Positions 49,146 through 64,000 are shown, numbered from the stretch's first letter. The stretch: 64,000 bases of DNA from Verrucomicrobiia bacterium (GCA_011525685.1 WYBW01000124.1:1-64000), one strand, 5' to 3'. The notes: a model not told the origin generated them from the letters alone. Numbers and translations are program-made.

Positions 49146-49178
49146 GTGCTGGTCCACTCAGCCGAACCGCGCGTTGCC

Positions 49179-50930
49179 ATGAATGTCGTTGAATCGAATA
49201 CCGCGCTCGTGGACGAGCTTCTGGCGAAGATGGTTGCCGCCCGGCAACTTTCCGCCAGCGACGCCCGTTCCTTGAGGCAGGCGGGCAACGCGTTGGTTCG
49301 GTCAGAGGAAGACGTGCTGCGCTGGCTGGCCAACGAATACGGCCTGCCCTACACGACGCTGGAGGACGTGGAACTCGACCGGCAGCTCCTGTCGCTGTTC
49401 CCCGCCCGGATTCTGCTCAAAGAGGAACTGCTGCCCTTGCGGCGTACCAACGGCTCGGTGGAGGTCGCCACCAGCCGCCTGTTTGCCACGCAGGGCATGG
49501 ACTCGTTGAAGACGCTCACCGGCCTGCGGCTCAAACCCGTGCTGGCGCCGAGCGAGGCCATCCAGCGCGAAATGAAGAAGCGCCTTGGAGTGGGCGCGGA
49601 CACCATCGGGACCTTGGAGGAGGAAAAGCCCTTCGAGGTCGTGGACGAAGACAAGCTGGAGGACACCGACCTCGACAGCGCGGCGGAAGACGCTTCGATC
49701 ATCAAATTTTGCAACCAGGTTCTGCGCGATGCCATCGAGCTGCGAGCCTCGGACATTCACCTCGAACCGTTCGAGGACGAATTCCGCATCCGCTACCGCA
49801 TTGATGGCGTGCTGCAGGACGTGCCGGTGCCCGCGCAACTGAAACGGTTTCAACCCGCCATCGTCTCCCGCGTCAAAATCCTCAGCCACCTCAACATCGC
49901 TGAGAAACGATTGCCACAGGATGGCCGCATCAAGATTCGCGTGGATGACGCCGAAGTGGACATCCGCGTGTCGGTGATTCCGATGTTGCACGGGGAAGCC
50001 GTGGTGATGCGCCTGTTGCGCCAGAACGCCACCCTGCGGGGCATGGCGGAGCTGGGCATGGACACGCGCGAATACAAGTGCTTTCAACACGTGCTGGAAC
50101 TGCCGCACGGGATCATTCTCGTGACCGGCCCGACCGGCAGCGGCAAAACCTCCACGCTTTACACCGCACTCAACGAGATCAACGACTCGGTCCGCAAGAT
50201 CATCACCATCGAGGACCCGGTGGAATATCAGTTGAAGGGCGTGAACCAGATTCAGGTGTCCGAAAAAGCGGGCCTGACATTTGCCCGCGGCCTGCGCTCC
50301 ATCCTGCGCCACGACCCGGACGTCATTCTCGTCGGCGAAATCCGCGACAAGGAAACCGCGCAAATCGCCGTGCAGGCTTCCCTCACCGGCCATCTCGTTT
50401 TCTCCACGCTGCACACCAATGACGCCCCGGGCGCCGTGACGCGACTCGTGGACATGGGCGTGGAGCCGTACCTGGTCGCCTCGTCCCTGGAGGCGGTGCT
50501 CGCGCAACGGCTCGTCCGCGTGCTCTGCAAACAGTGCAAAGAGGTGGACAATTCGCCCACCACCCAGGCGCTCAAGGCGCAACTGGGCATTCCCGCGGAA
50601 ACCACGCTTTACAAGTCCGTCGGCTGTCGCGCCTGCCGCAACACGGGCTTCCATGGCCGCCGGGCGATTTTTGAGTGGATGGATTCGGACAACGAAATCC
50701 GGCAACTCGTCCTGCGCAACGCCTCCAGCGACCAGATCCGCGATGCCGCGCGCCGGGCGGGCATGAAGACGCTGGCCGAGGACGGCTGGCGGCTGGTGCG
50801 CTTGGGCGTGACGACAGTGGACGAGGTCCTCAGCGTGACGACGGCGAAGGAGGTGTCGTTGACGATGGACAAGGCCGAGGACGAAGTGGGCGAAGACGCG
50901 CCTCACAGCATTGCCTTGAAGCGACCATGA
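49179..50930 (+). CDS. gspE: Type II secretion ATPase GspE
   Basis: A 583-residue cytosolic ATPase. The N-terminal MshEN-like domain covers about 1-145. The core has Walker A GPTGSGKT (317-324), the Asp box region IITIEDPVEYQL (341-352), Walker B ILVGEIRD (383-390) and the His box SLTGHLVFSTLHTND. A zinc-binding four-cysteine set is at about 450, 453, 483 and 486 (LCKQC and CRACRNTGF). It powers pseudopilus assembly. ATG 49179 (MNVVESNTALVDELL) is preferred to an upstream GTG. It heads the gsp genes, followed 41 bp later by gspF. Confidence 0.9.
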   Translation: MNVVESNTALVDELLAKMVAARQLSASDARSLRQAGNALVRSEEDVLRWLANEYGLPYTTLEDVELDRQLLSLFPARILLKEELLPLRRTNGSVEVATSRLFATQGMDSLKTLTGLRLKPVLAPSEAIQREMKKRLGVGADTIGTLEEEKPFEVVDEDKLEDTDLDSAAEDASIIKFCNQVLRDAIELRASDIHLEPFEDEFRIRYRIDGVLQDVPVPAQLKRFQPAIVSRVKILSHLNIAEKRLPQDGRIKIRVDDAEVDIRVSVIPMLHGEAVVMRLLRQNATLRGMAELGMDTREYKCFQHVLELPHGIILVTGPTGSGKTSTLYTALNEINDSVRKIITIEDPVEYQLKGVNQIQVSEKAGLTFARGLRSILRHDPDVILVGEIRDKETAQIAVQASLTGHLVFSTLHTNDAPGAVTRLVDMGVEPYLVASSLEAVLAQRLVRVLCKQCKEVDNSPTTQALKAQLGIPAETTLYKSVGCRACRNTGFHGRRAIFEWMDSDNEIRQLVLRNASSDQIRDAARRAGMKTLAEDGWRLVRLGVTTVDEVLSVTTAKEVSLTMDKAEDEVGEDAPHSIALKRP

Positions 50931-50971
50931 TTGAGTTGCCACAGAACCGCCTCGCGGCGGCTTGATCCGAT

Positions 50972-52255
50972 ATGCCCACCTTTCATTACCGAGCGCTGGG
51001 AGCGGACGGCAAGATCGCCGAAGGGCAGATCGAAGCCGGCGGCCGCGCGGAGGCGTTTCGCGTGATCGAAAAGCAGCGGCTGCGCCCCATCAGCTTGAAG
51101 GAAGGACTCAATGGACGGAACCGATCGCCGGCCCCCAAGGCCGCCGTGACCGCGGTCGCAACTCCCGCGGAGACCGCAGCGGAGGAGCCAACGGTGAAGC
51201 TCTCTTTCGGCTCGAACCGGATCACCGCCCGGGTCCTGGAAAACTTCACGCGCCTGCTCTCCAGCCTGCTTGCGGCCGGCGTGCCGTTGAGCCGCGCGCT
51301 GGTGATTCTCCAGAAGGAAGCCGCCAATCCGGCCGCCAAAGCCAAGTGGAAGGAAGTTCACGATCTGGTGGTGGACGGCATGTCCCTGGCCGACGCGATG
51401 AGCAAATCGCCGGAAACCTTCCCGAGAGTTTACACCGCGATGGTGGAGGCGGGGGAGACCGGCGGATTCCTCGACGTGGTGCTCAGTCAGATCGCGGATT
51501 TCCAGGCTCGCGAGAAGGAGATGCGGGGCAAGGTGATGACCGCGTTGCTCTACCCGGCCATCTTGTTGGTGCTGGCGGTGGGCGTGCTGATTTTTCTGCT
51601 CGTGTATTTTATTCCCCGTTTCCAGACGCTCTTCAGCGGGTTCAACGCCGCGCTGCCGCTCCTGACCCAAATCATCGTGGGCGTGAGTGACGTGGTGCGC
51701 TCGTACGGCCTGCTCGTCGCGGTGGTGTTGGTCATCGCCGTTCTGCTGGCGCGCACCTGGATCATTTCGCCCGTGGGCCGGCGTGCTTGGGAAGGATCGG
51801 TTCTGCGCCTGCCGGTCATCGGTCATCTGGTTGCCCAATTCGCGATGTCCCGGTTTTGCCGGATGCTGGGCACGTTGCTGGGGGCGGGCGTGCCGTTGAT
51901 CAACGGCCTGAATGTCGCCCGCCGCTCCATCGGCAACCAAATCCTCGTGGACGCGGTTTCCAACTCGATAGACCGCGTGAAGGAGGGCAAGGCGCTCGGA
52001 TTGAGCCTGGCGGAGTGTCGCGCCTTGTTCCCGGGATCGGTGCTCGAGATGATTTCGGTGGCCGAGGAGAGCGGCAAGCTGGATGCCGAGTTGGTGCGCA
52101 TCGCCAATGTGACCGAGGGCGATTTGGACCGGCAGCTCAAGACCGCCGTCGCGATGGCCGAGCCGCTGATGCTGTTCTTCATCGCCGCTTTCATCGGGAC
52201 CATCTTCATTGGCATGGTCATTCCCATTTTCACCTTGCAGGATCATATCCGATAA
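50972..52255 (+). CDS. gspF: Type II secretion inner membrane protein GspF
   Basis: A 427-residue platform protein. It starts MPTFHYRALGADGKIAEGQIEAGGRAEAFRVIE, the GspF N-terminus, followed by a linker and two T2SSF domains (about 90-200 and 295-410) with LTRLLSSLLAAGVPLSRAL-like segments (FTRLLSSLLAAGVPL, FCRMLGTLLGAGVPLINGL). Three transmembrane helices lie at about 191-213, 245-265 and 397-417. It forms the membrane platform with GspE, L and M. It retains the usual length and is followed 23 bp later by gspG. Confidence 0.9.
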   Translation: MPTFHYRALGADGKIAEGQIEAGGRAEAFRVIEKQRLRPISLKEGLNGRNRSPAPKAAVTAVATPAETAAEEPTVKLSFGSNRITARVLENFTRLLSSLLAAGVPLSRALVILQKEAANPAAKAKWKEVHDLVVDGMSLADAMSKSPETFPRVYTAMVEAGETGGFLDVVLSQIADFQAREKEMRGKVMTALLYPAILLVLAVGVLIFLLVYFIPRFQTLFSGFNAALPLLTQIIVGVSDVVRSYGLLVAVVLVIAVLLARTWIISPVGRRAWEGSVLRLPVIGHLVAQFAMSRFCRMLGTLLGAGVPLINGLNVARRSIGNQILVDAVSNSIDRVKEGKALGLSLAECRALFPGSVLEMISVAEESGKLDAELVRIANVTEGDLDRQLKTAVAMAEPLMLFFIAAFIGTIFIGMVIPIFTLQDHIR

Positions 52256-52278
52256 CACGCTGAACCCTTGCTCCAAAC

Positions 52279-52740
52279 ATGAAAATCGAAATTCAAAATT
52301 CAAAATCCGGAATCAGAAACCTTCGTGCCGCCGGCTTCACGCTGGTCGAGTTGCTGCTCGTGCTGGTGATTCTCGGCATTCTGGCGGCCCTCGTCATCCC
52401 GAAGTTCGCCGGGCGCGGCGAACAGGCGCGTCAGACCGCGGCGCGGACGCAGATCGCCGCGTTCTCCACCGCGCTGAGCGCGTTCGAGGTGGACAACGGT
52501 TACTATCCGCGAGGCAAGGACGGTTTGCAGGCGCTGATCGTCCAACCCAGCGACGCCACCAACTGGCGCGGACCGTATCTCGAAGAAAAGGGCGGCATCC
52601 CCAACGATCCGTGGGGCCGGCCTTATCTTTACGAGTGTCCGGGCAAGCGAAACCCCAATTCCTACGACCTCTCCTCCATGGGTTTTGATGGCAAGGAAGG
52701 CACCGAGGACGACATTACCAACTGGCAGTTGGGCAAGTAA
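52279..52740 (+). CDS. gspG: Major pseudopilin GspG
   Basis: A 153-residue type IV-like prepilin. After a 19-residue leader (MKIEIQNSKSGIRNLRAAG) comes FTLVELLLVLVILGILAALVIPKFAG, with the conserved Glu5, then NGYYPRGKDGLQALI, WRGPYLE, and IPNDPWGRPYLYECPGKRNP, the calcium-site and fold signatures of GspG. The leader's EIQNSKSGIRN is encoded by an A-rich micro-repeat. It is cleaved by a prepilin peptidase not encoded here and forms the pseudopilus shaft. Confidence 0.9.
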   Translation: MKIEIQNSKSGIRNLRAAGFTLVELLLVLVILGILAALVIPKFAGRGEQARQTAARTQIAAFSTALSAFEVDNGYYPRGKDGLQALIVQPSDATNWRGPYLEEKGGIPNDPWGRPYLYECPGKRNPNSYDLSSMGFDGKEGTEDDITNWQLGK

Positions 52741-52742
52741 CC

Positions 52743-53450
52743 GTGACTATTGGCGCGACAACTTTTGGAGTGCGGCGATTCGTCGCCGCTTTCCGTGCTT
52801 TGCTGGCCGGCCAGCCAGGCCGGACCGCGTCTGAGCGATTCGGGTTTGTTCCAGCGCATGCTTTCGCTCGACGGCGACAAGTCGCCATCCAAGAACGGCG
52901 ACAAGTCCCCTCACTCCAGAGCGGTTTCACCCTGATCGAGTTGATTCTCGTTCTGGCGTTGTTGGCGCTCGTGCTCGCGGTTTCCGCCCCTTCGCTCTCG
53001 AAGTTTTTCAAGGGTCGCAGCTTGGAATCGGAGGCGCGGCGGTTCATGGCGCTCACGCGGCACGCGCAGAGCCGCGCGGTGTCGGAGGGCGTGCCGATGG
53101 TCCTGTGGTTTGACAGCAAGCAACGGCTTTATGGTTTGAACGCCGACCGGTCTTTCGTCCAGGACGACCCATTGGCCGAAGAGTTCCAAGTTGATGAAGC
53201 AGTGCAGATCGAAGTGGAGCTTTCCTCCGAGGCGGTGGCGGCGAGCCAGGCGAGCCTTTTCAAAAGCGACAAACTGGACACCAGCGGGCTTTATTTCTTG
53301 CGCTTCAACCCTGACGGCTTTGTCAGCCCGAGCAGTCCCGAGTCGGTGGTCTTCCGGCAGGGCGACCAGGGCGAACTTCGGGTGGCGCAGAGCCGCAACC
53401 GTTTGAATTATGAACTGCAACCCGGCAAACCGAGCCTCGCGCGTCGCTAA
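52743..53450 (+). CDS. gspH: Minor pseudopilin GspH-like, with a 60-residue leader
   Basis: A 235-residue prepilin-like protein. The cleavage motif SGFTLIELILVLALLALVLAVSAPSLSKFF starts at Gly61, which is very late. Residues 1-60 come from repeat-like DNA, including a REP tail (52763-52792). The only start codons before the motif are GTG 52743, GTG 52770 and TTG 52800, so a long leader is unavoidable unless a rare start is used. The globular part (about 95-235) has beta strands as in GspH/FimT (ARRFMALTRHAQSRAVSEGVPMVLWFD). It belongs to the tip complex with GspI, J and K, and overlaps gspI by 41 bp. Confidence 0.75.
   Translation: MTIGATTFGVRRFVAAFRALLAGQPGRTASERFGFVPAHAFARRRQVAIQERRQVPSLQSGFTLIELILVLALLALVLAVSAPSLSKFFKGRSLESEARRFMALTRHAQSRAVSEGVPMVLWFDSKQRLYGLNADRSFVQDDPLAEEFQVDEAVQIEVELSSEAVAASQASLFKSDKLDTSGLYFLRFNPDGFVSPSSPESVVFRQGDQGELRVAQSRNRLNYELQPGKPSLARR
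52763..52792 (+). repeat. REP-like fragment inside the gspH leader
   Basis: TTTTGGAGTGCGGCGATTCG then TCGCCGCTTT. This is a relative of the REP tail at 11633-11658, with stem GCGGCGA/TCGCCGC. It is read in frame as the start of the GspH leader. Confidence 0.6.
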
Positions 53451-53817
53451 AAGCGCCCGGGCCGGCTTTACGCTGGCCGAGGTGCTCGCGGCGCTGCTGT
53501 TCATGGCCATCGTGATCCCGGTGGCCATGCAGGGACTGCGCATTGCCAGCCTCGCCGGATCGGTCAGCGAGCGAAAAGCCCTCGGCGCGCGGCTGGCGGA
53601 AAACAAACTGAACGAACTGATCGTGACCGGACAATGGCAGTCGGCGGCGCAGCGCGGCACGATGGAGGAAGGCCGCCAGAGTTATCCGTGGCGGTTGCAA
53701 ACCGAGCCGTGGCGCGAGGACGGCGCCATGCGGTTGGTCACGGTGATCGTGACCGTGCCGGTGCAGGGCCGGGATTATGAGGTGCAAATCAGCACCCTGG
53801 CGGACGCAACTCAGTGA
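53410..53817 (+). CDS. gspI: Minor pseudopilin GspI-like
   Basis: A 135-residue prepilin with a 19-residue leader (MNCNPANRASRVAKSARAG) then FTLAEVLAALLFMAIVIPVAMQGLRIAS, and GspI-like ARLAENKLNELIVTGQW, where the LAEN/KLNEL pattern is typical. It is part of the pseudopilus tip with GspJ and GspK. It overlaps gspH upstream and gspJ downstream (ATGATGA region), so translation is coupled. Confidence 0.85.
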   Translation: MNCNPANRASRVAKSARAGFTLAEVLAALLFMAIVIPVAMQGLRIASLAGSVSERKALGARLAENKLNELIVTGQWQSAAQRGTMEEGRQSYPWRLQTEPWREDGAMRLVTVIVTVPVQGRDYEVQISTLADATQ

Positions 53818-54659
53818 TGAAATCCGAGGTCCGAAATCTGAAATCTGAAGGCAATCCGAAGGTCGAGAACCGGTTCGGAGACGCCTGGACTTTGTCTCCG
53901 GCTTTCGGGCTCCAGGCTTCATTCGGTCTTCGGACTTCGGTCCACGGGCCTTCCCGAAAGGGTTTCACGCTGTTGGAATTGCTGCTGGCCGTGCTGGTGT
54001 TTTCCATCGTGCTGGGCGCCATTCACGTGGTCTTCTTCAGCGCGTTCCGGTTGAGAAATCGAACGGCCGAAGCCATTGAACGGTCGTTGCCGCTGCAGCA
54101 GACGCTGGCCATCGTCAAGCGCGACCTGGCCAATCTGGTGCCGCCGGGCGGACCTTTGTCCGGGGCGTTGCAAAGCACGCCGACCATTTCCACGAGTGGC
54201 AGTCTGGCCAGTTCGATGCGCGGCCAGAGCGGACCGCAATTCTACACCGCCACCGGCATCGTGGATGACACCGCGCCCTGGAGCGAGATTCGGCGGGTTT
54301 CCTATTATCTTGCCGCTCCCACCAACGACGCGCCGGGACTGGACCTTTACCGGTCCGTCGCACGCAACCTCCTGCCCGTGGCTCAGGACGAGGTCGAGGA
54401 CCAATTCCTGATGAGTGGCGTGGAGACGCTGGCGTTTCAATACTTCGACGGCAGCTCCTGGCGTGACGTGTGGGATTCGACGCAGGTGGACGCGGCGACC
54501 GGTTTGACCAACAACCTCCCGCGCGCCATCCGGTTGGAATTGCAACTCCATGAGCAGAACCCCACCGCAGGCATCCCGGCCCCGGTGCAACTGGTCGTGC
54601 CCGTGGTGGTGCTGGCCCGCACCAACCTCGGCACCATCGCCAGCGGAGGTGGACAATGA
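53814..54659 (+). CDS. gspJ: Minor pseudopilin GspJ-like, with a 50-residue leader
   Basis: A 281-residue protein. The prepilin motif KGFTLLELLLAVLVFSIVLGAIHVVFF starts at Gly50. The long leader begins KSEVRNLKSEGNPKVENRFG, encoded by a micro-repeat like those in gspG and the phosphohexomutase gene. The body has GspJ features: LQQTLAIVKRDLANLVPPGG, RRVSYYLAAP and DQFLMSGVETLAFQYFDGSSW. It is a tip component of the pseudopilus, and overlaps gspI and gspK by 4 bp each. Confidence 0.8.
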   Translation: MMKSEVRNLKSEGNPKVENRFGDAWTLSPAFGLQASFGLRTSVHGPSRKGFTLLELLLAVLVFSIVLGAIHVVFFSAFRLRNRTAEAIERSLPLQQTLAIVKRDLANLVPPGGPLSGALQSTPTISTSGSLASSMRGQSGPQFYTATGIVDDTAPWSEIRRVSYYLAAPTNDAPGLDLYRSVARNLLPVAQDEVEDQFLMSGVETLAFQYFDGSSWRDVWDSTQVDAATGLTNNLPRAIRLELQLHEQNPTAGIPAPVQLVVPVVVLARTNLGTIASGGGQ

Positions 54660-56158
54660 AACTCCTGGTGGATCAACCCCCGAAACCAGTCGAGGCGGAA
54701 ACGCCGCGGGTCCTGGCTTTGCGGCGGCTGACGCAGATCGCGGAGTTGTCCCGCCAGCAAACCGAACTGCGCGCGGACCTTTTCAACCGCGCCCGCGAAC
54801 GGTCCAAGCCGCGCCTCGGCGACCGCCGCAATGAAGGCTCGGTGTTGATCATCGTGCTCTGGATTTCCTTCGGGCTCGTGGCGCTGACACTTTACTTCGC
54901 GCACTCGATGAGTCTCGAGCTGCGCGCCGCGGACAACCGGGTGGCCGCCGTCGAAGCCGAGCAGGCCATCAACGGCGCGGCACGTTACTTGAGCAACATC
55001 CTGGCCACCGTTGCGTATCCCGGTGTCATGCCCGCGCCGATGGAGATCCTTTGCGAGGCCGTGCCGGTGGGTGAGGCGACCTTCTGGCTGATCGGCCGCG
55101 ACACCAACGACTGGGCCATCAACCTCACCCGCCCCGCGTTTGGGCTGGTGGATGAAGCCGCGAAGCTGAATCTCAACGCCCCGTGGCTCACCGCGGAAAT
55201 GATCCAATATCTGCCGGGCATGACCCCGCAGATTGCCGCGGCGATCATGGACTGGCGGGATGAGGACAGCACGGTTTCCACCGACGGGGCGGAGGACGAA
55301 ACCTACAGCCGTTTCACGCCGCCCTACAAGGCGAAGAACGCACCGTTTGAATCCGTGGAGGAACTCCGCCTGGTCGCGGGCATGACGGCGGAAATCCTTT
55401 ACGGCGAAGACGCCAACTTGAACGGGGTGCTGGACCCGAATGAGAACGACGCGGACGCAACCGCGCCCTACGACAACCGCGACGGTCGGCTTGATCCCGG
55501 CTTGATGGAGTATTTCACCGTCCACAGCTACGAGCCGACGGGGGGGACGAACATCAACAGCCAGGCCGATGTGCGGGCGTTGCTGGAAACCGTGCTGGGC
55601 CAGAGCCGCGCGGGCGAAATCATCACCCAGCTTCGCCGCACCGGTGGTCCGGGCGGCCAGCCGCCCTCGCCGACCAATTATCCGCCGGTTGGCAGCGTGC
55701 TCGAGTTCTACCTTCGCGGCGGCTTCACGCTGGATGAGTTTGCGGAGATTGCCGATTACCTGGCGCCGACCACGAACATCCTGGTCAATGTTAACACCGC
55801 CAGCCAACCGGTGTTGGAATGTGTGCCGGGCATCGGCTTCGATTACGCGGCGCAACTGGTGGCGTATCGGGAGTCGAATCCCGGCCTGTTGCGGAGCGTG
55901 GCCTGGGTGGCCGAGGCGATGGGCAGCGACACCAACGCGATTTTGGCCGGTCCTTTTCTCACGACCCGCAGTTATCAATACACGGCGGACATTGCCGCGG
56001 TGGGCCGGCATCAACGGGGCTACCAGCGCGTGCAGTTTGTTTTCGACACGAGTGAGGGCACGCCCATCATCGTCCGGCGACAGGACCTCACTCACTTGGG
56101 ATGGGCGCTAGGCTCGGATACGCGTGCCGAGTTGCTGGCCTGGAAGGAGCAGAGATGA
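54656..56158 (+). CDS. gspK: Minor pseudopilin GspK-like
   Basis: A 500-residue protein, longer than most GspK. A leader of about 60 residues precedes NEGSVLIIVLWISFGLVALTLYFAHSMSLEL, the hydrophobic helix, which lacks the usual Glu5 as in other GspK. Later come LIGRDTNDWAINLTRPAFGLVDEAAKLNLNAP and repeated helix-hairpin-helix-like segments: LTAEMIQYLPGMTPQIAAAIMDWRD, FESVEELRLVAGMT and VNVNTASQPVLECVPGIGFDYAAQLVAYR. It caps the pseudopilus tip. It overlaps gspJ and gspL. Confidence 0.8.
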   Translation: MKLLVDQPPKPVEAETPRVLALRRLTQIAELSRQQTELRADLFNRARERSKPRLGDRRNEGSVLIIVLWISFGLVALTLYFAHSMSLELRAADNRVAAVEAEQAINGAARYLSNILATVAYPGVMPAPMEILCEAVPVGEATFWLIGRDTNDWAINLTRPAFGLVDEAAKLNLNAPWLTAEMIQYLPGMTPQIAAAIMDWRDEDSTVSTDGAEDETYSRFTPPYKAKNAPFESVEELRLVAGMTAEILYGEDANLNGVLDPNENDADATAPYDNRDGRLDPGLMEYFTVHSYEPTGGTNINSQADVRALLETVLGQSRAGEIITQLRRTGGPGGQPPSPTNYPPVGSVLEFYLRGGFTLDEFAEIADYLAPTTNILVNVNTASQPVLECVPGIGFDYAAQLVAYRESNPGLLRSVAWVAEAMGSDTNAILAGPFLTTRSYQYTADIAAVGRHQRGYQRVQFVFDTSEGTPIIVRRQDLTHLGWALGSDTRAELLAWKEQR

Positions 56159-57606
56159 TGGACCTGAACAATCTCAACCAATGGTTCAAGCGCAAGCCCG
56201 GCAGTTCGCTGCTCGGACTGGCGCTGGACGGCAGCCGTCTGGCGGGGGTGCTGGTGCGCCGCACCAATGGATCGGTGGAGATCAAGCAGTCCTTTGACGC
56301 GCCGCTGACGCTGGATCCCTTGACGGCCGAGGTCGAACTCGCCGGGCGCGAAATTCGGAACCAACTCGAGGCGGCGGAGGTTCGCGAGCGTTGGTGCGCG
56401 GTGAGCCTGCCGTTGAACTGGGCGCTCACGCTCACGGTGAAGTTGCCGGACATTCCCGAGGCGGATGTGGCGGACTTCCTGCAGATCGAGGCCGAACGCG
56501 GTTTTCCCTATGGCCCGGAGGAATTGATGCTGGCCCATTCCCGCTTTCGCACCTCGACCGGCGAGCAGTACGCCACGTTGGTGGCGATTCTCCGTGAACC
56601 GGTCGCGCGGCTCGAGGCGGTGTTGCACGCGGCCCAATTGCGGCCCGTCACTTTCACGCTCGGGTTGACCGCGCTGCAACCCGCCGATCCTGACTCCGCG
56701 GACGGCACCCTCGCGCTGCTGCCGGGCGAGTCCAGCGTGGGCATGCAAATCACCTGCGGCGGCGGCCTGGCCGTGCTGCGCACGCTGGACGGCGCCTACG
56801 AACAGGCTGGCGCGGGCCGGGAACTGCAGGTCGAGCAAGTGGCCCGCGAAATCCGGATCACGATGGGGCAGTTGCCCGCCGAGGTGCGGGAAGCGATACG
56901 GAAGGTGCGCGTGTTTGGTCGCGACGACGCCGCCCAGGAACTGGCCGAGGAGCTGGAATCGCGCGCGGCGTCGCTGGGGCTGCAAGTCGAGCTGGTTCGC
57001 GATCATGCCCCGGTGGAGCACGGTCTCAAGCTGCCGCGCGGCATGGCGGTTTCGCCGGCCTTGAGCGTGGCGGTGCGGCAGTTGGCGGGCGGGCCGGCGA
57101 TGGAGTTTCTGCCGCCGAAGATCAGCGCGTGGAAACAATTCAGGGAGCGGTATTCCTCGGGCAAGCTGGCCTACGCCGGCGCGGGTGCGGGCGCGGTGGC
57201 GCTGCTGGTGTTGGGCGCGTTTCTCGTGCAACAAATCCGGCTCTGGCATTGGGAATCCAAGTGGGCGCGCATCGCGCCGCAAGTGACCGAGTTGACCGCC
57301 ATCCGCGACCAAATCCGCCAGTACCGGCCCTGGTATGACGACTCGGTGCGGACGTTGAGCATTTTGAAACGGCTGACCGAGGCGTTCCCCGAGGACGGCG
57401 CGGTTTCCGCGAAATCCGTCGAGTTGCGGTCGCCGTCCACCGTGACCTGCACCGGCACGGCGCGCAATCGCGACGCGCTGCTCCGGGCGCTGGACCGCTT
57501 GCGCGCGGCGAACGAGGTCTCGGACGTGCATATCGAAATGACGCGCGGCAGCACGACGCTGGAGTTCACCTTCAACTTCCAATGGAGAGGCGGGAGCCCG
57601 TTATGA
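56155..57606 (+). CDS. gspL: GspL-like (PilM/PilN-like) assembly protein
   Basis: A 483-residue protein. ATG 56155 overlaps the gspK stop and has an AAGGAG ribosome site. Residues about 1-320 form an actin-like PilM/GspL cytoplasmic domain (LLGLALDGSRLAGVLVRR, VSLPLNWALTLTVKLPDIPEADVADFLQIEAERGFPY). One transmembrane helix (about 355-377, LAYAGAGAGAVALLVLGAFLV) is followed by a PilN-like periplasmic domain (about 380-483, SVRTLSILKRLTEAFPEDGAVSAKSVEL). It links GspE to the membrane platform. The opposite strand is open only as a shadow. Confidence 0.8.
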   Translation: MMDLNNLNQWFKRKPGSSLLGLALDGSRLAGVLVRRTNGSVEIKQSFDAPLTLDPLTAEVELAGREIRNQLEAAEVRERWCAVSLPLNWALTLTVKLPDIPEADVADFLQIEAERGFPYGPEELMLAHSRFRTSTGEQYATLVAILREPVARLEAVLHAAQLRPVTFTLGLTALQPADPDSADGTLALLPGESSVGMQITCGGGLAVLRTLDGAYEQAGAGRELQVEQVAREIRITMGQLPAEVREAIRKVRVFGRDDAAQELAEELESRAASLGLQVELVRDHAPVEHGLKLPRGMAVSPALSVAVRQLAGGPAMEFLPPKISAWKQFRERYSSGKLAYAGAGAGAVALLVLGAFLVQQIRLWHWESKWARIAPQVTELTAIRDQIRQYRPWYDDSVRTLSILKRLTEAFPEDGAVSAKSVELRSPSTVTCTGTARNRDALLRALDRLRAANEVSDVHIEMTRGSTTLEFTFNFQWRGGSPL

Positions 57607-58145
57607 ACCTGACCCGGCGCCAACAAATCCTCGCGATCGTCGCCATCGCCCTGGTGGGACTTTACGTGGCCGACCAGCTCGTGTTCACCCCGTTGACGCG
57701 GAGCTGGAAGGCGCGCGCGGAGCGTCTCGTGAAACTCCGGGAACAGGTTCACGACGGCACGGAAATGCTCAAACGCGAAGCCGCCCTGCGCGAACAGTGG
57801 GACCGGATGCGCACCAACACCCTCATGGGTGTCAAGTCGGCGGCGGAGGGCCAGATGCTCCAGGCTTTCGAGCGATGGGCCAAGGAGGGCGGTGTGTCCG
57901 TCAGTTCCATCCGTCCTCAATGGCGGGAAACCCACGAGGATTACAAGACCATCGAATGTCGGGCGGACATCGGCGGCAGCCTGGCGGCCATCACCCGTTT
58001 CCTTTATCTCGTGGAGCGGGATCCGCTGGGAGTGAAGGTGGATTCCCTCGAATTGACCACTCGCAATCTGGACGGAACACAACTGGCCCTGGTCGTTCAG
58101 GTGAGCGGGTTGCTGCTCAACCCCCCCAAGAATTCCGCAAGATGA
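57603..58145 (+). CDS. gspM: GspM-like (PilO-like) assembly protein
   Basis: A 180-residue protein with a short N-terminus, one transmembrane helix (about 8-26, ILAIVAIALVGLYVADQLV), a coiled-coil segment (SWKARAERLVKLREQVHDGTEML) and a ferredoxin-like periplasmic domain (MLQAFERWAKEGGVSVSSIRP, ECRADIGGSLAAITRFLYLVERDPLGVKVDSLELTT). The layout fits GspM/PilO. ATG 57603 overlaps the gspL stop (ATGA). It partners GspL in the inner-membrane platform. Confidence 0.75.
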   Translation: MNLTRRQQILAIVAIALVGLYVADQLVFTPLTRSWKARAERLVKLREQVHDGTEMLKREAALREQWDRMRTNTLMGVKSAAEGQMLQAFERWAKEGGVSVSSIRPQWRETHEDYKTIECRADIGGSLAAITRFLYLVERDPLGVKVDSLELTTRNLDGTQLALVVQVSGLLLNPPKNSAR

Positions 58146-58183
58146 GGATTCCAACGCCAGCCAGACTGTGCGAAATTAGGCAC

Positions 58184-58903
58184 ATGAACACCCCCGGTCA
58201 CCTTGGGTCGGCGAGGCTGGCGGCGCTGCTGGTTCTCGGCATGGCGCTGGCGGCAATGGCGCAACCGGCGGGCGATTCGGCTGCCGAGCGCACGCCGGCG
58301 ACGGTTCCCGAGCGGGCGACCTCGCGCCTCGATGAATCGGCTTTTCGCATCGTGGCGGAGCGGAACATTTTCAACGCCAACCGCATTGGCCCGGTTCGGG
58401 TCACTTCGCCGCGGCGGCCGTCGGTGGTGGAGTCTTTCACGCTGGTCGGTACGATGGACTATGAGAAAGGCGAGTTCGCGTTCTTTGAAGGATCGAGTTC
58501 GGAGTTGACGAAGGTCTTGAAACCCGGCGCGGTCATTGCCGGTCACAAGCTTCTGGTCATCTCACCGCAGGGTGTGAAGCTGGAAGCGGATGGCAAGGAG
58601 ATTGACCTGCCAGTCGGTTCCCAGATGCGCCGCGAGGATGAAGGTTTGTGGCAGTTGGCAGAGGCCCGCTTCAGCAGTCCTTCGCCGGCCTCCAGCACCG
58701 CCAGTGTGGCCAGCCGGTCCGGTCGCCCTGAACGGGGCAACGAAAGCTTTGACCGCTCGCGCCGCGGCGGCGACACCTCCGCGCGACGCGGTGACGGCTC
58801 TGAATCCGCAACCCGGCCCGCCGCCAGTGCGGCGGCCTCCAGCGAAAGTGAAGACGAAGTGCTCAAACGACTGATGGAACGTCGAGAAAGAGAATCCCAA
58901 TGA
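58184..58903 (+). CDS. GspC/PilP-like periplasmic protein
   Basis: A 239-residue protein with a signal peptide (MNTPGHLGSARLAALLVLGMALAAMAQ). ATG 58184 has an AGG box, with ATG 58142 overlapping gspM as an alternative. The domain at about 45-145 resembles the HR/PilP fold: FRIVAERNIFNANRIGPV, VVESFTLVGTMDYEKGEFAFFEGSSSELTKVLKPG, and KLLVISPQGVKLEADGKEIDLPVGSQMRR. GspC/PilP proteins connect the inner platform to the secretin's N domain. The C-terminal third is disordered (Ser/Arg/Ala-rich). It overlaps the first secretin gene by 4 bp. Confidence 0.65.
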   Translation: MNTPGHLGSARLAALLVLGMALAAMAQPAGDSAAERTPATVPERATSRLDESAFRIVAERNIFNANRIGPVRVTSPRRPSVVESFTLVGTMDYEKGEFAFFEGSSSELTKVLKPGAVIAGHKLLVISPQGVKLEADGKEIDLPVGSQMRREDEGLWQLAEARFSSPSPASSTASVASRSGRPERGNESFDRSRRGGDTSARRGDGSESATRPAASAAASSESEDEVLKRLMERRERESQ

Positions 58904-60651
58904 AAACATTCATGCTCAAATCCACAACGGGTCTCCTGGCGCTGGCGCTTGGCTTCGGCGCACTGGCACAGGATCAAGAACCGGAAGACGACACTCCCTC
59001 TCCGGCTGAACTCCTCCGGCGGTTGCTGCCGCAGAACGGGGAAACCAACGGTCTGACGGAGGAGACACTGGCGGAACTGCTGCGTTCCGCGCTCGAGGCG
59101 CGGCAGACCAACGGTGAAGAGCGCGTCGAAGGCCAGCGACCGGAGCCGGAACGCGGGCCGCGCCCGATTCGCGGTCAGGGCACGCGCGGCACCATGGGAT
59201 CGTCCACCAACGCCCTCCCGCTGACGGCCCTGCTCGACGGCCCGTCCGCCGCGCCGGGCGCCAACGCGAGCGGAAAAGGGCTGCGGCTCAACTTTCGCAA
59301 CGCCCCGCTTCATCTCGTGCTGGATTACTTGAGCGATGCCGCCGGGTTGGTGATCAGCGCCAATTCGAAGGTGGACTTGAAGGGCGCTGTCACGGTTTGG
59401 TCCAACCAGATGGTGGACCGCACCGAGGCCATCCGGCTGTTGAACGCCGCGCTGACCTCCAGCGGCTACGCGGCCACCGTCGAGGGCAACCTGCTCAACA
59501 TTTACGTCGTGGACGCCACGACCACGCCCATCGAAGTCGGCATCCCGGACAACGATTACGCGAACATTCCGCCCACCAAAGACCTGGTGACCCAGATCGT
59601 CTATGTCAGAAACGTGGAAGCCAATCAGTTGATCCAATCGTTGACGCCGCTCATGCCGACGGGCACGTCCATGAGCGCCAACCAGGGTGCGAACGCCATC
59701 CTGATCACGGATACGCGGGCCAACATCCGTCGGATGGCGCAACTGGTGAAGGCGCTGGACACGGCCAGCGTGAGCGCCACCGAAGTGCGGGTGTTTCCAT
59801 TGATCTACGCCGATGCCACCGCGCTGGCGCAGGCGGTGACGCAGTTGTTTCAAACCGACAGCACGGCCAACACCCGCAACCGGGGCGGGTTTCCTGGCAT
59901 GCCCGGCTTCGGTGGCTTCCCCGGTGGAGATCGCGGTCGCGGCGACGCTGGTAGCGGTGCCCAGGCGGGCCGGGTGGCGGCACCACGAGTCACGGCCGTC
60001 GCGGACGAGCGCAGCAACTCGCTGGTGGTGGCCGGCTCTGTCGAACAACTGGAGGCGGTCCGGCTGTTGGTGGACCAGATTGACGTGAACGTGGATGACA
60101 TCACGGAGCTGCGCGTGTTCCGGTTGCGCAACGCCGACCCGCAGGAAACGGCGGATCAGTTGGCCAGTTTGTTCCCGGATCCATCCACGCAGCAGGGTTC
60201 GCGCAACCAGCAGGGCGGTTTCCGCGGGTTCGGTCCGTTTGGCGGCGGTCAGGTCCGGACCGCCAGCACAACCGATCCCAATTCCCGCAATCTCAAGCAG
60301 ACCCGGGTGACGGCTGTGGCCGATCCCCGCACCGGCTCGGTCATCGTGAGCGCCTCGCGCGACCTGATGATCGAAATCGCCGGCATCATCGAGGAACTCG
60401 ACTCCGACCCCGCGCGCAAGAAGCGCGTCTATGTCATCCCGGTGGAGAACCGCGACCCGCAGGAGGTCGTGCAGGGCCTGCAAAGCGTGATTGCGACCGA
60501 CAGCAGCGCCAACTTGAACACGCGCAACACGGCAAACCAGTCGGGAAGCCAGTTGAACACCCGCCAGCAAAACAACCTCCAGAACCAGCGGAACACCGGT
60601 GGCCAGTTCAACAGCGGCTTCGGGGGAACCGGTACGCGAACCGGCCGTTAA
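58900..60651 (+). CDS. GspD secretin, N-domain half (split gene, part 1)
   Basis: A 583-residue exported protein (signal peptide about 1-23, LGFGALAQ) built of secretin N domains only. N0-like is at about 126-205 (RLNFRNAPLHLVLDYLSDAAGLVI). Further repeats are at about 228-288, 294-396 and 402-504, the latter two each with a Gly-rich loop and VTAVADERSNSLVVAGS / VTAVADPRTGSVIVSAS. A last half-domain at about 507-532 (KKRVYVIPVENRDPQEVVQGLQSVIA) is followed by an Asn/Gln/Gly-rich tail and a TAA stop. No secretin barrel is present. The missing half-domain and the barrel are in the next gene. Confidence 0.8.
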   Translation: MKTFMLKSTTGLLALALGFGALAQDQEPEDDTPSPAELLRRLLPQNGETNGLTEETLAELLRSALEARQTNGEERVEGQRPEPERGPRPIRGQGTRGTMGSSTNALPLTALLDGPSAAPGANASGKGLRLNFRNAPLHLVLDYLSDAAGLVISANSKVDLKGAVTVWSNQMVDRTEAIRLLNAALTSSGYAATVEGNLLNIYVVDATTTPIEVGIPDNDYANIPPTKDLVTQIVYVRNVEANQLIQSLTPLMPTGTSMSANQGANAILITDTRANIRRMAQLVKALDTASVSATEVRVFPLIYADATALAQAVTQLFQTDSTANTRNRGGFPGMPGFGGFPGGDRGRGDAGSGAQAGRVAAPRVTAVADERSNSLVVAGSVEQLEAVRLLVDQIDVNVDDITELRVFRLRNADPQETADQLASLFPDPSTQQGSRNQQGGFRGFGPFGGGQVRTASTTDPNSRNLKQTRVTAVADPRTGSVIVSASRDLMIEIAGIIEELDSDPARKKRVYVIPVENRDPQEVVQGLQSVIATDSSANLNTRNTANQSGSQLNTRQQNNLQNQRNTGGQFNSGFGGTGTRTGR

Positions 60652-60678
60652 ATCTTGGGATCATCGGGAAGGAATCCA

Positions 60679-61824
60679 ATGCGAAATCCAAATCAACTCG
60701 GCAAAGTTCTCGCTCACGGGCTGGCGGCGGCCTTGGTCTGCGTCTTCGCGACCATCACGCTGAACGCCCAGCCGGCCGGAGCCGCCACGACCCAACGTTC
60801 GACGGCCCGGATCGGCAGTTATCCGGGCAGCACCGACATCGGCCAGGCGCGCATCACCTACGACGCGGAAACGCGCAGTCTGATTGTGGTCGCCGACGAA
60901 GCCACAGCCATGCACATCACCAACGTGGTGCGCCAGTTGGACCGGCCCACGCCGCAGGTGTTGATCAACTGCGTCTTCATGGAGGCGACCTACACCAAGG
61001 GCCTGGACATCGGAGTGGATGGCGTTTATCAGCACAACATCTCCAGCAAGAACATTGATGCGTTCAACGGCACGGGCACGGCGGCCACGGTGTTCGATCT
61101 CGCAACCAGTGGCGGACTTTACACACTGGTCGGCCAGGACCTGCAGATCAATGTCGCCGCTCTCGCCCGCGCCGGCAAAACCGAGATCCTCTCCCGTCCC
61201 TCGGTCCTTGCCCGCAACAACCAGCAGGCCACCATCACCATCGGACAACAGGTGCCCCTCATCAGCGGCGTCACCTACGACAACTTCGGCAACCAGCGCA
61301 ACGCCATCACCTATCAGGACGTGGGCATCATCCTGCGGGTGACGCCGTTCATCACCTCCGACGGCATGGTCGAGATGATCGTCGCCCCGGAGGTCTCCTC
61401 CGTCTCCGACTCCACCGTCAGCTTTACCACGGGGACCAACGACTTCGGCTCGGCCACCGCGCCCATCATCAACGTGCGCTCGGCGGACACCGTGGTGGTC
61501 GTGCCCGACGGCGAAACGGTGGTCATTGGCGGGCTGATGCAGACGTTGAAAGCGAAGTCGGAAAAGAAAGTGCCCATTCTCGGTGACATCCCGCTCTTGG
61601 GGTTTCTGTTCAAACACAAGGTGACGGGCGATGAGAAGAAGGAGTTGCTCATCTTCCTCACGCCTCACATCGTGCAACGGCCCTCCGACCTGCTGGCGCA
61701 CACGGCCAACGAGCGGCGCAAAGCCAGGGCCATCAACAAGGCCTTCCCCGAGGAAGACATCAACCGCTACCTGAACAACGCCCCGCCCGCCGATGGAGTT
61801 TTCCGCGAGTTGCCGCCGCAGTAG
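60679..61824 (+). CDS. GspD secretin, barrel half (split gene, part 2)
   Basis: A 381-residue protein with its own signal peptide (MRNPNQLGKVLAHGLAAALVC..., cleavage about residue 35) and a GGAAGGA ribosome site. Residues about 57-90 (ARITYDAETRSLIVVADEATAMHITNVVRQLD) are the second half of an N domain, missing its first strand-helix. The secretin domain runs about 91-350: PQVLINCVFMEATYTKG, LQINVAALARAGKTEILSRPSVLARNNQQATITIGQQVP, GIILRVTPFI, and the C-terminal VVIGGLMQTLKAKSEKKVPILGDIPLLGFLFK motif. It forms the outer-membrane channel. Confidence 0.85.
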   Translation: MRNPNQLGKVLAHGLAAALVCVFATITLNAQPAGAATTQRSTARIGSYPGSTDIGQARITYDAETRSLIVVADEATAMHITNVVRQLDRPTPQVLINCVFMEATYTKGLDIGVDGVYQHNISSKNIDAFNGTGTAATVFDLATSGGLYTLVGQDLQINVAALARAGKTEILSRPSVLARNNQQATITIGQQVPLISGVTYDNFGNQRNAITYQDVGIILRVTPFITSDGMVEMIVAPEVSSVSDSTVSFTTGTNDFGSATAPIINVRSADTVVVVPDGETVVIGGLMQTLKAKSEKKVPILGDIPLLGFLFKHKVTGDEKKELLIFLTPHIVQRPSDLLAHTANERRKARAINKAFPEEDINRYLNNAPPADGVFRELPPQ

Positions 61825-61864: not shown

Positions 61865-63364
61865 ATGAACCTGCGTGGCAAATGGGTTTACCTGGTCCTG
61901 TTGGCGGTCTGGCTGATGGTCCTGGCCTGGCAGGCCGCCGAGCACGCCCGCGTCCGCCAGTCCGCCCGCGCGGCGCTCATCAACCGTGCCCGCGACATCT
62001 CCAGCACCCTCGGCATCGTCATCCGTTCCCAACGTCACTTCGGCGTCATCTCCAAGGAACGCTTGGAATCCGCTCTTACGGAACTGGTCAGCCAGGGAGA
62101 ATTGAGCGGCGTGGCCCTGCGCAACGCGGCGGGCGAAGTCGTCGCCTCCGCCGGCGTGCCCTTTGACGACCAGACCCGCGCCGCCGTCGGCCCGGCCGAA
62201 CTGTGGAAAGACCAGACCGTCATCCTCATGAACCTGGTGGACCTGGGCGCCAACGTCCCGCGCGACCTGGAGCGTACCAATCCCCCGCTCGTGCTGTCCC
62301 GTGACAACTTCATGCGACCCGGAGAAGCCAACCGCGGCGAACCATACCGCGAACGCCCGCCGCCACCGCCCCCTGATGAAATGCAAGCCAACGAAGACGG
62401 CGAACTGGCTGCCCGTGGGCGCGGTCGTCCCCGCGGCGGATCGGACGGGCGACCCCGATTTGCCCGGCCTTTCTGGATGGACGAAGACGAGTACAAGACC
62501 CTGATCCAAAAACAGGGCGTTCACAGTTTTGTTCTCGCCATGTCCACGCGACCGATGCACGAAGCCAGTCGCGCGGACTTCTGGATGCGGCTGCTCGTGG
62601 TCACCTTCGCCACCGCTTCCGTGATCGGCATCGGCCTCGCTTGGGGGCACGTTGGTAAATCCGCCGATCTGCAGATCCGGCTGGTGCGCGCCAGCGAACT
62701 GAACTCGCACTTGAAACGCATGAACGTGGCCGCCGCGGGATTGGCCCACGAAACCCGCAACCCCCTCAACATCATCCGCGGCCTCGCCCAGATGATCTCC
62801 AAGCAGCCGGACACCCCGGACGAAATCCGCCGCAAATCCCAGGACATCGTTGCCGAAACCGACCGCGTCACCGCCCAACTCAACGAATTCATCAACTACT
62901 CCCGCCCCCGCGAAGTCCGCCGCGCCCCGCTGCCCTTGAACGCCGCCATTGGCGAAGTCGCGCGCGCCCTCAGCTACGACCTGGAGGAAAAAAGTATTGA
63001 CCTGCAAATCCAGGGCGAAAACCTCGTCATTCAGGCCGACGAACAGATGTTTCGTCAGGCACTCTTCAACCTCCTGCTCAACGCCGTTCAGGCCGTCGGG
63101 CGGGGCGGGCAGGTTCAGGTCGTCGCCCAGAAGCGCAACGCCTCCGAAGCCGTGCTCGAGGTCCGCGACAACGGCCCGGGCGTGCCGCCGGACCGGCGGG
63201 CCGAGATCTTCAAACCCTACTTCACCCTCCAACAACAGGGCACCGGCCTGGGACTGGCCGTCGTCCAGCAAATCGTCCTTGCTCACGGGTGGGAGATCGA
63301 ATGTCTGGGCAATGAACCCCGCGGTGCCGTCTTCCGCATCACCCACTTGAAACTCGCCGCCTGA
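61865..63364 (+). CDS. Sensor histidine kinase (NtrB-like)
   Basis: A 499-residue membrane kinase. TM1 is about 7-24 and TM2 about 241-262, flanking a periplasmic sensor that contains a Pro-rich stretch (about 163-172). The H box is AAGLAHETRNPLNIIRGLAQM with His295. The N box is ALFNLLLNAVQAVG, then G boxes DNGPGVPPDRR and GTGLGLAVVQQI. It autophosphorylates and should pass the phosphate to the adjacent NtrC-type regulator, 19 bp downstream. It is in line with the secretion genes (40 bp after the secretin), so it may sense the state of secretion or of the envelope (inference). Confidence 0.85.
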   Translation: MNLRGKWVYLVLLAVWLMVLAWQAAEHARVRQSARAALINRARDISSTLGIVIRSQRHFGVISKERLESALTELVSQGELSGVALRNAAGEVVASAGVPFDDQTRAAVGPAELWKDQTVILMNLVDLGANVPRDLERTNPPLVLSRDNFMRPGEANRGEPYRERPPPPPPDEMQANEDGELAARGRGRPRGGSDGRPRFARPFWMDEDEYKTLIQKQGVHSFVLAMSTRPMHEASRADFWMRLLVVTFATASVIGIGLAWGHVGKSADLQIRLVRASELNSHLKRMNVAAAGLAHETRNPLNIIRGLAQMISKQPDTPDEIRRKSQDIVAETDRVTAQLNEFINYSRPREVRRAPLPLNAAIGEVARALSYDLEEKSIDLQIQGENLVIQADEQMFRQALFNLLLNAVQAVGRGGQVQVVAQKRNASEAVLEVRDNGPGVPPDRRAEIFKPYFTLQQQGTGLGLAVVQQIVLAHGWEIECLGNEPRGAVFRITHLKLAA

Positions 63365-63383
63365 ACGGGCTACCCTTGCGGAC

Positions 63384-64000
63384 GTGGCAGCCGCACATCG
63401 CAAAAACGGTGAGAAAGCGCCCCGCATCCTGATCGTGGACGACGATGCCGGCCAGCGCAGCCTCCTCGATTCCTTCCTCCGGAGCCAAGGCTTCGACACC
63501 ATCCCCGTCCCCTCCGGCGAAGCCGCTTTGGAGGTCCTGCGCCAGCAGGAGATTCAAATGATGATTTCCGATGTGCGCATGCCCGGCCTCTCCGGATTGG
63601 AAACCCTCCGCCGCGCCCGCAAAGAACACGCCCGCCTGCCCGTCCTCCTCGTCACCGGTTACGCCGATGTCCGCGAAGCCGTCGGCGCCATGCGCGACGG
63701 AGCCATCAATTACCTCAGCAAGCCCATTGACTTGGACGAACTCCTCGTCACCGTCCAACAGGTCACCGGCTTGAGCCGGGCCGTCCCGGTGCAGTTCGGC
63801 GAGCACCGCCCCCTGCCGCCGCACGTCGTTGCCGAGAGTCCCTTGATGAAGGCCGTCCTCCACGAAGCCTCCTTGATTGCCCCTTCGGAAAGCCGCGTCC
63901 TCATCACTGGCGAAAGCGGTGTCGGCAAAGAGGTCCTGGCCGACGTCATCCACGCCTGGAGCCCGCGCGCCTCCGGCCCGATGGTCAAGGTCAATTGCGC
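63384..64000 (+). CDS. NtrC-family sigma-54 response regulator (partial)
   Basis: The reading frame runs from GTG 63384 off the window end (205 codons visible). The receiver domain has acidic pocket DDD (about 18-20), phosphoacceptor Asp62 in ISDVRMPG, the Thr/Lys pair in LLVTGYADVREAV and Lys112 in YLSKPIDLDE. A linker leads to the sigma-54 activation domain, which starts VVAESPLMKAVLHEA and has the Walker A GESGVGKE (about 175-182). The GAFTGA loop and the DNA-binding domain lie outside. It is the likely activator of the sigma-54 promoter at 48469. Confidence 0.85.
   Translation, partial: MAAAHRKNGEKAPRILIVDDDAGQRSLLDSFLRSQGFDTIPVPSGEAALEVLRQQEIQMMISDVRMPGLSGLETLRRARKEHARLPVLLVTGYADVREAVGAMRDGAINYLSKPIDLDELLVTVQQVTGLSRAVPVQFGEHRPLPPHVVAESPLMKAVLHEASLIAPSESRVLITGESGVGKEVLADVIHAWSPRASGPMVKVNC

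Follow-up and report, generated by a model that had tools for sequence, protein, structure and literature searches.

The window analysed here, a stretch of 64,000 nucleotides from a Verrucomicrobiia bacterium, carries a complete type II secretion system (T2SS) operon (E to M, C, A, B), which ends in two adjacent open reading frames, denoted chain A (GspD1) and chain B (GspD2). The genes upstream of this pair in the same operon span 49146..58903 on the plus strand and were assigned with Pfam and NCBIfam, apart from the short GspC-like protein, which was named by position and length; downstream of B lie a sensor kinase and an NtrC-like regulator.

49146-50930, plus strand: GspE
50972-52255, plus strand: GspF
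52279-52740, plus strand: GspG
52743-53450, plus strand: GspH
53410-53817, plus strand: GspI
53814-54659, plus strand: GspJ
54656-56158, plus strand: GspK
56101-57606, plus strand: GspL/PilM-like, on a weak PilM match
57582-58145, plus strand: GspM
58178-58903, plus strand: GspC-like

Chain A is present as a single copy in the genome, and its start codon shares bases with the stop codon of the GspC-like gene (ATGA). The ATG at 60679 was taken as the start of chain B; an alternative in-frame TTG upstream, at 60655, is possible, and the ATG was preferred because the relatives start with ATG. The features of the pair are as follows.

58900..60651, plus strand: chain A (GspD1), 583 amino acids, TAA stop; signal peptide followed by N0, three full Secretin_N domains, the opening half of a fourth and a tail rich in Asn and Gly
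59287..59496, plus strand: N0 domain, A residues 130-199; Pfam PF21305 (type_II_gspD_N0), E 4.6e-07
60424..60513, plus strand: first half of the split N domain, A residues 509-538; strand 1 and helix 1 in the AlphaFold secondary structure
60514..60648, plus strand: Asn/Gly-rich C-terminal tail of A, predicted to be disordered (pLDDT 30-50), with a conserved L-x-x-R motif
60652..60678, plus strand: A-B intergenic gap, 27 nt
60679..61824, plus strand: chain B (GspD2), 381 amino acids; signal peptide, then the remaining half of the split N domain and the secretin barrel
60679..60768, plus strand: signal peptide of B, with probable cleavage after Ala30 (between ITLNA and QPAG), read from the sequence
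60847..60939, plus strand: second half of the split N domain, B residues 57-87; strands 2 and 3 and helix 2; Pfam PF03958
61159..61677, plus strand: secretin barrel domain, B residues 161-333, complete; Pfam PF00263, E 9.1e-51

The N0 of A is matched structurally by the N0 of a known GspD (4jtm; Z 11.1, 2.6 Å over 80 residues), and Pfam identifies three further Secretin_N stretches in this chain. In the split domain, the AlphaFold secondary structure places a strand at 509-514 and a helix at 520-538 of A, strands at 57-62 and 67-72 and a helix at 74-87 of B, and B matches only positions 31-69 of the 69 in the Secretin_N model (PF03958; B residues 55-93). The original prediction, of a first gene ending in half an N domain and an Asn/Gly-rich tail and a second supplying a signal peptide, the other half and the barrel, is borne out by the ORF calls and Pfam; so is its placing of the cut in the loop between helix 1 and strand 2, where the AlphaFold secondary structure puts it, this being the loop that holds Gly-rich insertions in the two preceding domains. 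With a profile of the second half-domain, chain A shows three copies (258-287, 366-395, 472-501) and chain B a single one (59-88). The total is N0 plus four Secretin_N domains, where canonical GspD has only three (N1-N3).

The NCBIfam model for the T2SS secretin GspD, TIGR02517, has a curated cut-off of 351.35 bits. Both A alone (192.3 bits) and B alone (235.6 bits) fall under it, and the two read through the single TAA pass it at 417.6 bits. The GspD domain set (PF21305, PF03958, PF00263) is complete but spread over two chains, and one polypeptide per subunit, which is usual for GspD while not being part of the model definition, is not what is found here, there being two ORFs with separate signal peptides. 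By homology, domains and locus the pair nevertheless still counts as GspD. As each chain is under the cut-off of the model, GspD may be missed in the annotation of these genomes. The gene order K-L-M-C-A-B recurs in 30 of 31 long relative loci, the exception (L045) ending upstream of C, and the same order occurs in a Sumerlaeota-type genome (L057).

The identity of the divided domain was addressed with an AlphaFold model of the read-through chain, beginning at base 59257, such that model residue 1 is A120 and model residue 475 is B1. The last N domain of this model consists of a strand (390-395) and a helix (401-419) from A followed by two strands (531-536, 541-546) and a helix (548-561) from B; pLDDT is about 90 in the half-domains and 30-40 in the linkers. 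A structural aligner places model residues 389-838 on residues 282-657 of EPEC GspD, which comprise N3 and the barrel, and within residues 388-563, 64 residues superpose at 2.0 Å on one continuous 65-residue N domain of HofQ. A second prediction, limited to the split domain and its linker and made from 44 alignment rows of both split and single-chain proteins, gave the A half a pLDDT of 92-96 and the B half one of 93-94. Every one of the 33 best structural matches to it is a secretin, aligned over 59-78 residues of both halves at 1.6-4.0 Å, nearly all of them at 1.6-3.0 Å. Among these N domains are N3 of ExeD (243-326; 59 residues, 1.6 Å), XcpQ (66 residues, 2.4 Å), N3 of Escherichia coli GspD (239-322; 64 residues, 2.3 Å) and N3 of Vibrio cholerae GspD (236-316). 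Foldseek returned no match below E 0.001 for this small model, with alignments mostly to one half only, whereas the structural aligner covered both. By sequence, too, the B half aligns with the second half of E. coli GspD N3, immediately before the barrel. By models and alignments, the split domain is thus the counterpart of canonical N3, adjoining the barrel. All secretins have an N3, which structurally belongs to the C domain (PMC5646246) and is required for pore assembly (PMC8134430). The canonical N3 has about 84 residues, of which 59-64 align with the split domain, and it therefore also has an insertion of about 20 residues.

The predictions were made on one read-through chain and not on two free chains or a ring, the contacts were not inspected directly, and pTM was only 0.42-0.44, owing to the disordered linkers. 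That both halves are predicted to pack into one N domain in read-through chains is accordingly compatibility rather than proof.

Loci of relatives were collected by a scan of the whole collection together with order- and phylum-wide searches, and were classified with A and B profiles on six-frame ORFs; most of these relatives are metagenome-assembled genomes. In the family of the source organism B is a separate ORF in all 12 of 12 genomes. Systems scoring more than 370 bits to B comprise 172 distinct split ones and 2 cut off by contig ends, and a further two split systems scoring 342 and 356 bits bring the distinct split systems to 174; among these 174 and the two at contig ends no single-chain (fused) member of the split clade was found. 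They span Verrucomicrobiota and a Sumerlaeota-type phylum, and are cut at the same site. Over three frames the relation of A to B is distributed 61/57/51 in 169 relatives, and the gap between the genes has a median of 42 nt, extends to over 100 nt and is never an overlap. In the 169-170 relatives with a recognisable barrel start, B begins with ATG in 168 and has a hydrophobic signal segment in 169 of 170, with a signal-peptidase-like site in 158 of the 170 and an xAQ/xGQ site in 149. Both half-domains are conserved over class-to-phylum distances, the first across 62 aligned A tails. The two-chain arrangement has thus been kept by evolution across at least two phyla.

L007/L018 and L052 were set aside, since their A frame is broken, near residues 426 and 341, and these may be metagenome errors. 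Two apparent fused relatives (L042 and L055) were rejected when frame checks revealed overlapping out-of-frame ORFs, and Omnitrophota was not counted as a split-bearing phylum, the locus labelled an omnitroph by NCBI (L036) sharing a contig with G172, a member of the window's own order.

Single-chain relatives are found in the neighbouring Planctomycetota (the phylum of L062), where all 24 matching genomes, of 246 searched, have GspD on one chain. These proteins (e.g. L131, L132, L134, L135 and L062/L127), together with L164, are the closest relatives by sequence and tree. Like A and B combined, they have extra N domains, and their last N domain carries a long disordered loop at the corresponding position; unlike A and B, they are one chain without an internal signal peptide. 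The loop in the planctomycete chains, of about 40-100 residues and rich in Gly, Ser, Asn and Arg, lies where A ends and B begins. Of the 15 matching genomes in the phylum to which a genome labelled candidate division BRC1 belongs (Sumerlaeota according to NCBI), 13 have the split, one is truncated and one (L164) has a single chain of the planctomycete type. A maximum-likelihood tree was built from the barrel alone, without the columns that carry the trait itself, and in it 43 split proteins form one clade (99/99), adjoining the single-chain planctomycete proteins, with one change in total. A single event, in which a stop and a new signal peptide arose in the disordered loop, is therefore the simplest placement. 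The original prediction had also remarked on an unusual extra N domain; the domain is there, as one Secretin_N above the canonical number, and it has no link to the split: at least four Secretin_N domains also occur in planctomycete single chains, and the extra one is thus older than the split. For this branch of GspD, neither the extra N domain nor the loop is out of the ordinary.

Whether the two halves have evolved together was examined by mean-field direct-coupling analysis of 161 gene pairs, or 165 with the whole of B; the effective number is small (95-132) and overlapping windows are not independent. The A half couples with the B half at a mean of 0.143, its highest value by a wide margin, against -0.056, -0.084 and -0.036 with the second halves of the three complete domains of A (N1, N2 and N3). 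Within those three complete domains, whose halves are covalently joined, the values are 0.087, -0.034 and 0.029, all under that for the split pair. In the analysis of 165 pairs, not one of 256 barrel windows couples with the A half as strongly as the half-domain window does, and no preference for the B half was seen for the A tail, though this is nearer to B on the gene, or for the preceding domain of A. Seven of the top 50 A-B couplings fall in the half-by-half block, where 1.0 would be expected. Correlation of the coupling matrices position by position between split and covalent domains is weak (0.125, with about 0.2% of shifted matrices as high), as it also is among the covalent control domains themselves, and block means rather than contact patterns were used for that reason.

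While there is a possibility that the half-domains are relics, with A making its own rings, B forming a minimal pore and other contacts joining the two, we regard this as unlikely. The long, disordered linkers would allow for it, and RhcC1 and RhcC2, for which no shared domain is described, function as two proteins (PMC3459982); against this, a half-domain on its own would stay unfolded and leave its sheet edges exposed, yet the two are preserved over distances from class to phylum, and they couple with each other above all controls. Joining of the chains during translation, by read-through or frameshift, to give one GspD is very improbable: about one third of the members are in frame, as chance predicts, but two thirds are not, gaps reach over 100 nt, and a signal peptide in mid-chain would be senseless when the starts and cleavage sites of B are conserved. 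Little more can be said for A as an adaptor shared between two or more secretin barrels of the cell, as the genome does contain four other secretins, one of them GspD-like at 305 bits, but all four are single chains with their own N regions, and A is single-copy and always adjoins B. In the window A and B are in the same reading frame, as an in-frame stop would give; since the frames of the relatives are spread over all three, this arrangement is a coincidence. An assembly error or recent nonsense mutation in one broken gspD, for which the shared frame and the single TAA and 27 nt between the ORFs might speak, can be practically discounted against 174 distinct split relatives in two phyla, cut at the same site in three frames and with new signal peptides, none of them fused and both halves conserved; assembly error, pseudogene and read-through were all rejected on the 170-174 relatives.

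The original prediction had named a frameshift or sequencing error, or half-domains that failed to pair in prediction, as what would refute it, and had called for a search of related genomes for single-chain and split versions. Error is excluded by the 174 split relatives, none fused, with their varied frames and gaps and the signal peptide that almost every B has; the search found the clade to be entirely split and Planctomycetota single-chain; and in the model of the read-through chain the half-domains do pair, with pLDDT of about 90 or more, and superpose on single N domains of solved secretins. Its central proposal, that two exported chains complement each other in one domain, is supported by this prediction and by the residue coupling.

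We therefore favour, with considerable confidence, a working T2SS GspD made from two polypeptides, in which the N3 counterpart is completed by both halves and which was split once, with secretion function and a ring in the cell being inferred. Both chains would be exported by Sec, each on its own signal peptide, and would meet in the periplasm, where A would provide N0, the presumed docking site of GspC, and three stacked N rings, and B the outer-membrane barrel. The N3 counterpart would take strand 1 and helix 1 from A and strands 2 and 3 and helix 2 from B, the halves being joined non-covalently in the periplasm by fragment complementation, presumably once per subunit round the ring. On this reading, it originated from a stop and a new signal peptide inside the long disordered loop of an ancestral single-chain GspD, of the kind still present in Planctomycetota, after which the split was kept in Verrucomicrobiota and the Sumerlaeota-type phylum. 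The half-domains very probably join to build the gate; there are no expression, localisation or secretion data and the biochemistry is untested. That a mixed ring forms in the cell, that its stoichiometry is 1:1 and that it confers any advantage are inferences only. The likeliest advantage, as speculation, is an assembly checkpoint, B being unable to complete N3 until A docks. The wider idea that the whole bacterial branch has an obligate two-chain T2SS ring, with about 15 copies of the barrel-adjacent domain in each pore completed in trans as a checkpoint against premature multimerisation of the barrel chain, is tentative, and we lean somewhat against it.

Canonical GspD proteins (E. coli GspD 5wq7, XcpQ 5wln, ExeD 6i1x and PulD 6hcg) share N0, Secretin_N, barrel and T2SS operon with the A and B pair, and differ in being one chain with one Secretin_N fewer. 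Split secretins as such are already known. The rhizobial type III secretion system (T3SS) secretin (RhcC1/RhcC2; also HrcIIC1/C2) is encoded by two genes, for an N-domain protein and a barrel protein (PMC3459982, PMC3574062), and RhcC2 was derived from a Tad secretin by partial replacement, such that the pieces have different origins (PMC3459982; PMC3574062). The pair described here is in a T2SS, whereas RhcC1 and RhcC2 belong to a T3SS, their genes are non-adjacent and no shared half-domain is described for them; nor are its pieces of different origin, as each of A and B matches GspD and the two can be aligned with one and the same planctomycete single chain. In the mitochondrial T2SS of some protists (jakobids, heteroloboseans and others), GspD is likewise divided over several genes (GspD, GspDN1, GspDN2, GspDN3), two of which, GspDN2 and GspDN3, each represent half of an N domain (PMC8134430); mitochondrial GspD and GspDN1 interact in yeast two-hybrid. 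That set, unlike A and B, is eukaryotic, highly divergent and in more pieces, with no assignable correspondence to N1-N3, whereas A and B are two pieces in a bacterial operon with Sec signal peptides. No common origin of the two splits has been shown, and only the principle of the half N domain is held in common (PMC8134430). A literature search, limited to open-licence papers, found no report of a bacterial T2SS secretin that is split or cut inside a domain, and what is new here is such a secretin with its cut inside a domain and with the split fixed in more than one phylum.

The domain in question ties the N rings to the barrel, and its division in two with the system retained is a natural experiment. 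With two parts that can be purified separately, it becomes possible to follow their docking and to test how the secretin assembles and in which order N rings and barrel form, and the single-chain forms that survive in a neighbouring phylum illustrate a route by which a membrane machine can be split within a domain, through a loop and a signal peptide. The system also provides a bacterial counterpart to the fragmented mitochondrial T2SS.

One feature of chain A, the L-x-x-R motif of its tail, has no coupling to the half-domain of B, and its conservation in an otherwise disordered tail is not accounted for by the explanation preferred here. The leucine is present in 98% and the arginine in 100% of 62 aligned tails, and [LFM]xxR occurs in 145 of 166 A tails compared to 46% of shuffled tails.

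Directly after the gene for chain B, which carries the secretin barrel of the split GspD, lie two regulatory genes:

61865-64000, membrane sensor histidine kinase and NtrC-like regulator

As a similar kinase is also found 3' of chain B in many relatives, this arrangement suggests that the T2SS operon is controlled by the adjacent sensor histidine kinase and NtrC-like regulator. The Asn/Gly-rich tail of chain A, the partner bearing the N domains, is predicted to be disordered apart from a short motif, which is also conserved in the tails of relatives and reads QLNTRQQ here and NSALTTRxxQ in many of them:

60550-60575 (chain A residues about 551-558), conserved L-x-x-R motif

The genome of the window encodes a second GspD-like secretin, besides three more single-chain secretins, L003 and L004 of the Amuc_1098 pilus type, and L005:

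G000:C15:10223-11212, L002, single chain, 736 aa (TIGR02517, 305 bits)

The split secretin L096 comes from another part of the phylum and, in the barrel tree, is nested next to L054, a member of the main group; in the same tree, L103, which is from Verrucomicrobiota, forms a pair with L163 from the Sumerlaeota-type phylum. Given these placements, it is possible that the entire split system has been transferred between lineages in both cases. The MAG containing locus L036 is labelled Candidatus Omnitrophota, an NCBI name that is probably wrong, since its contig is identical to C393 of G172, a genome from the same order as the window. In metagenome contigs, the chain A frame is interrupted in L007/L018 (near residue 426) and L052 (near residue 341), reflecting either sequencing errors or decaying genes.
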